This document shows positions 35,509 to 37,755 of a stretch of DNA of 64,000 nucleotides, in pieces (the first letter of the stretch is position 1; every line of letters starts with the position of its first letter). The stretch covers positions 434,001-498,000 of the forward strand of contig NZ_SETE01000002.1 of NCBI RefSeq assembly GCF_004152935.1, in the 5' to 3' direction. Under the pieces are notes generated by a model that ran no database searches, was not told the DNA's origin, and saw only the letters and a program-made list of their open reading frames with translations. The position numbers were made by a program, and so were the translations under genes. This stretch comes from Brumimicrobium glaciale (GTDB taxonomy: Bacteria; Bacteroidota; Bacteroidia; Flavobacteriales_D; Crocinitomicaceae).

Positions 35509-36624
35509 ATGAGTGATTATATTGTTTCTGCAAGAAAATACAGACCCAAAACCTTCGATACGTTGGTGGGTCAAGGCAATATTTCTACAACTTTAAAAAA
35601 TGCAATCAAAAACGATCAGTTAGCGCAAGCATTTTTATTTTGTGGTTCGCGTGGTGTTGGTAAAACATCCACTGCTCGTATTTTAGCAAAAACAATTAAC
35701 TGCTCTAATCGCACTGAAAACATTGAAGCATGCGGAGAATGTCCATCATGTAAATCTTTCGATGAAGGTCAATCTTTAAACGTTTATGAATTAGATGCCG
35801 CTTCTAACAATAGTGTGGACGACATCAGAAGTTTAATTGACCAAGTTAGAGTTGCTCCACAATTAGGAGATTACAAAGTCTATATTATTGATGAGGTGCA
35901 CATGCTTTCAACAGCTGCTTTTAATGCTTTCTTAAAGACATTAGAAGAGCCTCCAAAGCATGCAATTTTCATTCTTGCAACAACCGAAAAGCACAAAATA
36001 ATTCCTACCATACTTTCCCGTTGTCAGATTTTTGATTTCAGTAGGATTCAAATTTCTGATATCGCTGAACACTTGAAAAAGATTTCAGTTAGCGAAGGAA
36101 TTGATGCAGAAAGTGAAGGATTACATTTAATTGCTCAAAAAGCAGATGGTGCATTAAGAGATGCGCTTTCTATGTTTGATCAAATTGTAAGTTTTACAGG
36201 AAAAACATTGACTTATCAATCGGTAATAGAGAATCTAAATGTTTTGGATTACGATTACTATTTCCGATTAGTTGATTACGCTATAGAGGAGGATATTACA
36301 AGTAGTTTATTATTGTATCACGAAATCGTAAATCATGGATTTGATGGTCACCAATTCTTAGTTGGACTTTCTGAACATTACCGTAATTTATTGGTGGGTA
36401 AAAATCCAAAAACCGTCGAATTACTCGAAGTTGGAGATTCTATTAAGCAACGTTACAAAGACCAGTCAGCAACAATTGACGCTAAACACATAATGCGTGC
36501 ACTTGGAGTTATAAGTAGCGCTGACACTAATTATAAAGCAGCTAAAAATCAGCGGTTACTCGTTGAATTAACTTTGATGCAATTGTGTTCGATTAAAAAC
36601 GAGCTCGAAAAAAAAAAGCCTTAA
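35509..36624 (+). CDS. dnaX: DNA polymerase III gamma-like short product
   Basis: The unshifted product of dnaX: 371 aa ending in ELEKKKP, with the complete AAA+ ATPase, zinc site and the start of domain III but no tau-specific C-terminus. In E. coli the short gamma form is made by -1 frameshifting at A AAA AAG; here it would be the default product and the long form would need the shift. Whether it is made in the cell is unknown. A TATTTTTG element at 35497-35504 ends only 4 nt before the ATG, so the mRNA may be almost leaderless. Confidence 0.6.
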   Translation: MSDYIVSARKYRPKTFDTLVGQGNISTTLKNAIKNDQLAQAFLFCGSRGVGKTSTARILAKTINCSNRTENIEACGECPSCKSFDEGQSLNVYELDAASNNSVDDIRSLIDQVRVAPQLGDYKVYIIDEVHMLSTAAFNAFLKTLEEPPKHAIFILATTEKHKIIPTILSRCQIFDFSRIQISDIAEHLKKISVSEGIDAESEGLHLIAQKADGALRDALSMFDQIVSFTGKTLTYQSVIENLNVLDYDYYFRLVDYAIEEDITSSLLLYHEIVNHGFDGHQFLVGLSEHYRNLLVGKNPKTVELLEVGDSIKQRYKDQSATIDAKHIMRALGVISSADTNYKAAKNQRLLVELTLMQLCSIKNELEKKKP

Positions 36625-37244
36625 CTGACCCTGTTGAGATCATTCCTTTTAAAGGACAAAAAGACAGTAAAGCATTACGCGATAATAAAGGAAATTCTGC
36701 TCCACAAGCGAAGACAGTTGAAAAACCAAAACCGATAACTTTAAACAAGGAAGCTAAGCAGCTCTCCGCTCCTACTCGAAAGCTCAATAATTCCTACTTA
36801 GGCATCAACGATTTAATGTCTCAAGCGAATGAGAAAAAAGAGGAAGTTGTTGAAGAAAACCACGACAATCGTCCAACAGATTCATTTTCTATTGATGATT
36901 TAAGAATGACTTGGAGAAAGTTCGCATTCAAAGCTAAAGAAGATGGAATGGGAACACTCTACACAGCGATGATTGGAAATGACCCGGAAATTGGAGAAAA
37001 CTTTTTGATAAAGCACAGAGTAGATAATGATGTTCAGCTAGGATTTATTCAAACGCATGAAACAACATTAGTTGGATATTTAAGAAAAGAACTCAATAAC
37101 TGGTCTATTCAATTAAAACTAACTGAAGAAACAATTGAAGCAGGAAAATTCTACTCAAGTCAAGATAAATTTAACGACATGGCGGAGCGTAATCCGCATT
37201 TAACAACATTACGTCAAAAATTTAAGCTAGATATTGATTTTTAG
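35509..37244 (+). CDS. dnaX: DNA polymerase III tau subunit, read through a -1 frameshift
   Basis: Tau is the clamp-loader ATPase that joins polymerase cores in the replisome. Frame 1 (35509-36618) encodes the AAA+ part: Walker A GSRGVGKT (46-53), zinc cysteines 65, 75, 78 and 81, DEVH (128-131) and the LSRC arginine finger. After codon 370 the frame stops (TAA, 36622-36624), but the -1 frame is open without a break from 36618 to 37244 and encodes 208 more residues, a Pro/Lys-rich linker followed by a C-terminal domain ending KFKLDIDF. A shift at the run of ten A residues at 36608-36617 joins both into a 578-aa tau, the usual length. Essential gene, so either slippage is productive or the A-run length is misassembled. 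Confidence 0.8.
36608..36618 (+). other. A10-G slippery site in dnaX
   Basis: Ten A residues then G, read GAA AAA AAA AAG in frame 1. A homopolymer this long allows transcriptional slippage and ribosomal -1 shifting; a gain of one A (or loss of two) restores the tau frame. The frame-1 stop follows two codons later. Confidence 0.8.
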
Positions 37245-37404: not shown

Positions 37405-37755
37405 ATGGATTTAATAAAAGAAGTTCAAAACGAATTTTCAACGGCATACGACGCACCAGTTTTCGGAGCAGGAGACACAGTAGCTGTTTCATATAAAATT
37501 AGAGAAGGTGAAAAAGAGCGTATTCAGCAGTACACTGGGGTTGTTTTACAACGTCGTGGTGTTGGATCAACGGAGACTTTCACTGTTCGTAAAATATCAG
37601 GTGGTATCGGAGTAGAGCGTATCTTCCCATTACACTCACCTTTTATTGACGATATTAAAGTTCTTAAAAGAGGTGCTGTACGTAGAGCTCGTATTTTCTA
37701 CTTCCGTGAAAGAACTGGTAAAGCTGCAAGAATTAAGGAAAAAAGAAGATTCTAG
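37405..37755 (+). CDS. rplS: 50S ribosomal protein L19
   Basis: A 116-aa ribosomal protein located at the 30S-50S interface. Recognised by [60 protein letters not shown] and [20 protein letters not shown]. Full length. Transcribed from its own strong promoter and ended by a hairpin terminator; the usual trmD neighbour is absent. Confidence 0.98.

Follow-up and report, generated by a model that had tools for sequence, protein, structure and literature searches.

The dnaX gene of Brumimicrobium glaciale is split between two reading frames that meet at a run of ten A residues, and it is probably functional, with programmed slippage at this run deciding between its two products and RNA polymerase most likely slipping. 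Within the 64,000-nucleotide stretch that was analyzed (the window), the 0-frame ORF lies at 35509-36624 on the forward strand and encodes a gamma-like product of 371 aa with the AAA+ ATPase, lid and domain III. Its 3' end reads GAA AAA AAA AAG CCT TAA, with the stop codon (TAA, 36622-36624) two codons past the A10 run (36608-36617), which is flanked by G on both sides. The -1 frame is uninterrupted through the run up to TAG at 37242-37244, and the tau-specific half of 208 aa (36618-37244, forward strand) is read in this frame; translation with 11 A's gives a joined product of 578 aa. The earlier note on this DNA had described the two frames, the short 0-frame product, the open -1 frame and the 578-aa product, and its coordinates are accurate to the base. 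Directly downstream, an ORF at 37405-37755 of the window encodes what we take, from its sequence, to be ribosomal protein L19 (rplS).

Slippage of RNA polymerase on the A10 run would generate messages with differing numbers of A's. Computed translations with 8, 11 or 14 A's yield products of 577, 578 or 579 aa, and those with 7, 9, 10, 12 or 13 A's yield products of 370-373 aa. Messages with 11 or 8 A's would therefore bring the tau half into frame (tau of 578 or 577 aa), and messages with 10 A's (unslipped), 9, 12 or 13 would give gamma-sized proteins of 371-373 aa. The region after the run is closed in both other frames (36622-36628, forward strand), by the TAA in the 0 frame and by a TGA in the +1 frame (36626-36628), so that a message out of register with tau would end as a gamma-sized protein. 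Some tau may also come from ribosomal -1 slippage on the A AAA AAG that lies in the run, because its product would be the same 578-aa protein. Sequence comparison shows the split, how it is conserved, constraint acting on the two halves, the drift of register and the closure of both other frames; we infer the main slipping machine, most likely RNA polymerase, and the tau:gamma ratio. Tau connects the clamp loader with the polymerase and the helicase, as described in PMC11470591 and generally known; if our reading is true, the cell depends on a slip for the long form of DnaX.

The gene appears to be the only full-length dnaX of its genome: with the ATPase half as query, the single full-length match was this dnaX, and three weaker places matched over parts at 29-32% identity. 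The genome holds 40 exact A10 runs, of which only those of dnaX and L199 touch an ORF longer than 103 aa. The dnaX run sits 366 codons into its ORF, and the L199 run reaches from the last part of a 343-aa ORF into the opening codons of one of 303 aa. The other runs touch ORFs of 61-103 aa at most, or none that reaches 60 aa.

Profile searches matched both halves to the same DnaX model. The joined 578-aa product scored 752.8 bits on NCBIfam NF011531 (PRK14971; DnaX), above the cut-off of 685. By itself, the ATPase half scored 684.4 bits over positions 1-364, just below the cut-off, and the shifted half matched profile positions 424-614, the C-terminal third (E = 3.2e-21). Pfam recognized DNA_pol3_delta2, DNAX_ATPase_lid and DNA_pol3_gamma3 in the ATPase half and nothing above cut-off in the shifted half. 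Against the PDB, the ATPase half matched gamma/tau chains (best E = 2.2e-68); the tau half as a single sequence returned one chance-level row (E = 0.28), and as a profile it returned 26 rows (best E = 0.0033), with no replication protein among them. We utilized AlphaFold2 to model the last 150 residues of the tau half from 33 aligned sequences, and the model is a compact small alpha/beta domain (pLDDT 86). Structure comparison placed 4tps_B (Z = 8.6) and 8a3v_C (Z = 8.4) at the top, which we took by chain length as DnaA domain I and DciA, respectively; chains of DnaA domain I and DciA entries appeared among the top rows at Z = 8.6, 8.4, 7.6 and 7.4, a size common for models without a clear match, mixed with RbfA, ribosomal KH domains and a mitoribosome factor. 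Foldseek gave a best E of 0.02, and the tau domain V of E. coli was absent from the best 50 structure rows. Tau domain V has a pseudo-KH fold. The predicted model is in keeping with tau domain V but is no proof of it.

Comparison with the dnaX genes of related genomes, which the earlier note had suggested, revealed that the split is widely kept. Each of the 10 genus genomes has it: nine carry A10 with tau at -1, and one (L009) carries A9 with tau at +1. Of the 89 distinct genes examined from the family, 88 are split. These 89 comprise 72 genes with a run and tau out of frame, one with a run and tau in frame, and 16 that are split without a run; G057, another gene with tau in frame, enters the counts as its named record L037. 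L037 and L038 are named relatives, MAGs labelled Flavobacteriales and Crocinitomicaceae. The family search found a dnaX match in 193 of 200 genomes. Among the matches listed, most open frames were 372-405 aa, and the exceptions were those of G057 (595 aa) and G167 (587 aa), with A11 and tau in frame, and of G189 (486 aa), G015 (448 aa), G161 (428 aa) and G155 (413 aa), with A10 or A11 and tau at -1. An annotation restricted to the 0 frame would label this dnaX as truncated and would overlook tau in most of a family.

Both halves are under constraint. Across 45 pairs of genus members, the median Ka/Ks was 0.02 for the ATPase half (10 pairs finite) and 0.118 for the tau half (16 pairs finite). 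The median pN/pS of the tau half over the 45 pairs was 0.39 in the shifted frame, compared with 1.01 and 1.56 in the other two frames, which indicates purifying selection on the tau half in its shifted frame. These values bear on the reading that the split is an assembly or sequencing error or a decaying gene. Homopolymers are indeed error-prone; nevertheless, nine of the ten genus genomes and the one-contig genomes L152-L154 carry the split with the same run and register, and other species would not be expected to share A10 and register, nor the shifted half to be under purifying selection, if the gene were an artifact or in decay. We therefore give error or decay almost no weight. The earlier note had left slippage, a polymorphic run and error side by side; the comparative evidence favors programmed slippage, and the shared run and the selection speak against error. 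From these comparisons, the split dnaX appears to be a real and long-kept slippage site, neither an assembly error nor a decaying gene.

We next consider how far this kind of junction extends. For a dnaX survey, 206 loci were gathered and 191 distinct genes kept, with 15 dropped as duplicates, short matches or contig ends. The sample is uneven (89 of the 191 genes come from one family), and it includes partial genes and two family genes (L148 and L234) whose ATPase half is interrupted by stop codons. A junction run of 9-13 A's was found in 159 of the 191 genes: A10 in 133, A11 in 15, A9 in eight, A12 in two and A13 in one. No gene had A8, and 32 had shorter runs. Outside the junction, the same genes (330 kb) contain 32 runs of eight A's, five of nine and one of ten. 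Relative to the ATPase frame, tau lies at -1 in 96 of the run-bearing genes, at 0 in 57 and at +1 in six, and the run itself is found in all three phases. Among the 77 named loci kept, 61 have a run, with tau at 0 in 47, at -1 in 13 and at +1 in one. The base after the run in the 96 genes with tau at -1 is G in 42, T in 37 and C in 17.

We built a FastTree phylogeny from 185 ATPase rows, leaving out six rows shorter than 300 residues, all of them A-run genes with tau at -1. On this quick tree, in which 65 of 180 inner branches are weak, the tau register changes at least 18 times among the 153 run-bearing rows, only twice within the run-bearing rows of the family, and the A-run was gained or lost at least eight times. 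Programmed transcriptional slippage calls for an A-run of roughly nine or longer that persists irrespective of register, and this is the pattern found here. Moreover, both non-tau frames stop within seven codons of the run in 148 of the 159 genes, compared with about 16-20% at control positions in the same genes. With both wrong frames closed, each message outside the tau register yields a gamma-sized protein in most genes, whatever the genomic register.

This pattern also bears on whether the DNA itself might toggle between 10 and 11 A's in the population, a form of phase variation raised in the earlier note as a polymorphic A-run. Long A-runs can slip during replication, and family members with 11 A's and tau in frame do exist (L037/L145 and L146). 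Yet the run is exactly ten in most run-bearing genes with tau at 0 or at -1 and in five of the six with tau at +1, and both wrong frames are closed far above control positions. Tau is an essential part of the replisome, for which a two-state supply would be odd. We consider such toggling highly improbable. The site offers a clear comparative case for slippage as a stable gene design, in which the A10 run is kept while the tau register drifts through all three frames.

We next weigh which machine slips. A rival route is programmed -1 ribosomal frameshifting, which would use the A AAA AAG in the run and resemble that of E. coli dnaX with the roles of the two products exchanged. In our estimate it is unlikely to be the main route, though several observations would suit it. 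The heptamer is present in the right phase in the window's own dnaX, and in PMC5009743 the reversed dnaX type is described as ribosomal frameshifting, with Chlorobium phaeobacteroides given as a candidate that has stimulators like those of E. coli. The 30 of 34 tRNA loci that were read include two tRNA-Lys(UUU) genes and no CUU type; having only tRNA-Lys(UUU) among them, as in E. coli, would permit ribosomal slippage. For Thermus, PMC5009743 suggests that a second tRNA-Lys may bear on the use of transcriptional slippage there. Against ribosomal frameshifting as the main route, the run is held at nine or more A's though seven would do, the following base is free, all phases of the run are found, and six genes need +1. 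Since the base after the run is free, the heptamer is not kept among relatives, and a -1 ribosomal shift cannot serve the six genes with tau at +1 (one of them in the genus, L009 with A9). Transcriptional slippage would explain all of these features: the length floor at nine, the free phase and register, the free next base and the +1 cases. The floor also matches the length of nine from which, according to Baranov et al. (PMC1088944), a large share of genomes shows selection against slippage. Judged from sequence, the pattern fits transcriptional slippage, as in Thermus, better than ribosomal frameshifting of the E. coli type.

We also examined possible ribosomal stimulators around the run. 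Synonymous constraint is unusually strong at codon 365 (GAG for Glu; 36601-36603, forward strand), which ends four bases short of the run. It is GAG in 62 of the 67 rows with Glu (69 genes), compared with about 24% GAG among the Glu codons of the ATPase halves, and its bias ranks second of 231 columns; this strong conservation speaks for ribosomal frameshifting. Glu 129, far from the site, is GAG in 67 of 69 genes, a bias stronger than that of codon 365, so the preference at codon 365 does not prove that there is a signal. Both codons are nearly always GAG in family dnaX genes that otherwise prefer GAA. The GAG at codon 365 lies beyond what transcriptional slippage explains and could be a weak ribosomal stimulator. 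A Shine-Dalgarno-like motif within 25 bases upstream of the run was found as GGAG in 24 and as AGGAG in 20 of 79 genes; with a motif longer than the GAG codon in only a minority of genes, a Shine-Dalgarno stimulator was not favored. Downstream RNA structure was likewise not favored as a stimulator: in 71 family genes it showed no excess over shuffles (mean z +0.11 and +0.28), which counts against ribosomal frameshifting, although this fold z-score is a weak test, as the E. coli dnaX hairpin scores about 0 despite a far lower energy (-19 vs -7 kcal/mol). By the same score, there was a mild excess in 30 other shift-needing genes (mean z -0.52, with five and four below -2) and in 57 in-frame genes (mean z -0.32 and -0.45, with seven and five below -2).

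Sites of this kind are not without precedent. The GeneTack analysis reported 17 two-ORF dnaX genes of 12 genera, nine of them with exactly 10 A's, and proposed transcriptional realignment for them (Antonov et al. 2013, PMC3711429). As described there, those genes resemble the present one in having two ORFs with an A-run at the overlap, a tau that needs a shift, and a -1 relation on the DNA. The kind of slippage site was therefore already predicted in print in 2013, and by that description this dnaX belongs to it. The earlier note had rightly set the gene against E. coli, where the shifted product is the short one, though the reversed arrangement, too, was in print by then (PMC3711429). Whereas the GeneTack set comprises those 17 genes, the present analysis follows the split across one family and further afield and counts the changes of register. 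What is new is the extent of the A-run type, together with run-less relatives that carry a stop/start overlap, mostly at a conserved ATC.

Three other systems offer comparison. In Thermus thermophilus dnaX, A-run slippage yields messages in all three frames and, as here, a stop lies close to the run outside the tau frame, according to PMC1088944; unlike here, the run has nine A's and tau needs no slip. Escherichia coli dnaX is the same gene with the same two products, but its site is A6G with an upstream AGGGAG and a strong hairpin, and it works by ribosomal frameshifting with gamma as the shifted product (as described in PMC5009743). Shigella flexneri mxiE is similar in that its longer product needs transcriptional slippage (PMC1088944) and different in that it is an unrelated gene with a run of U's.

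Sixteen relatives in the family lack the run and still have tau at -1 (L117, L118, L120-L122, L124, L126, L128, L140, L215-L220 and L223). Nine are from g11, four from g5 and one from g23 (the full yield of the genus searches), and g8 and g20 contribute one each from the family sample. In 13 of the 16, the join reads ATC-N-TAR, where the ATC belongs to the tau frame and overlaps the stop of gamma. At the remaining three joins, a canonical start overlaps the stop: ATGA in L122, GTGA in L219 and TAATG in L140. L219 keeps ATC as the codon after its GTGA start, and L122 reads AAACAAGCATGATAA where L218 reads AAACAAGCATCTTAA, with almost identical upstream bases and the ATG of L122 at the position of the ATC; the protein alignment instead places the Met of L122 one column before the Ile. 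Any TGA stop that follows A, G or T creates a start codon in the tau frame by itself, which makes L122 and L219 less telling than they first seem. The Ile column at the join is ATC in 14 of the run-less genes and ATA in one, compared with 345 ATT, 109 ATC and 87 ATA among the Ile codons of their ATPase halves. Other Ile columns are equally uniform (column 58 is all ATT, and column 8 of the tau half has 14 ATA and two ATT), so the uniformity of ATC at the join is not proof by itself.

For six of the 16, just 12 bases separate the opening of the -1 frame from the end of gamma's stop codon, which confines a shift or a start to the last few codons. A -1 shift at the ATC-N-TAR join is the less preferred reading of the two; as the join has no evident slippery heptamer, restart of translation is preferred. 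Slippage may perhaps have been replaced in these genes by termination-coupled restart, mostly at a non-AUG AUC, which would make the tau domain a separate polypeptide (a split tau); going by the joins, we put this forward tentatively, as a reading with nearly even support. We found no literature on a split dnaX or an AUC-started tau among the open-licence papers listed in our searches. On the tree, the 16 run-less genes group together, but the group also takes in L127, which has an A10 run, which implies either repeated loss of the run or its return. The run-less relatives offer a natural test of the need for a covalent link between gamma and the tau domain. As a separate observation, L117, L118 and L120 have GGAGG four bases before the ATC.

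A few further dnaX genes had unusual structures. In L069, the 0-frame ORF ends in CTGTCTCTTATACACATCT, which looks to us like a Nextera adapter, so this MAG contig may carry adapter sequence. L076, L103, L081 and L113 have no run of nine or more A's, and none is counted in the 159. L081 (4100-4200), the dnaX of a MAG labelled Bacteroidales, has its tau half in the +1 frame, which could be either an error or another arrangement. In L113 (4099-4101), L103 (4102-4104) and L076 (2788-2790), the gamma and tau parts are separated by one in-frame TAG. These are Bacteroidota MAGs, two of them labelled Bacteroidales, and an exact pattern search for the motif found it in none of 395 genomes of the class. 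The three genes share the context CATAGATTGCNAGG around the TAG; either read-through or restart at ATT may take place there.
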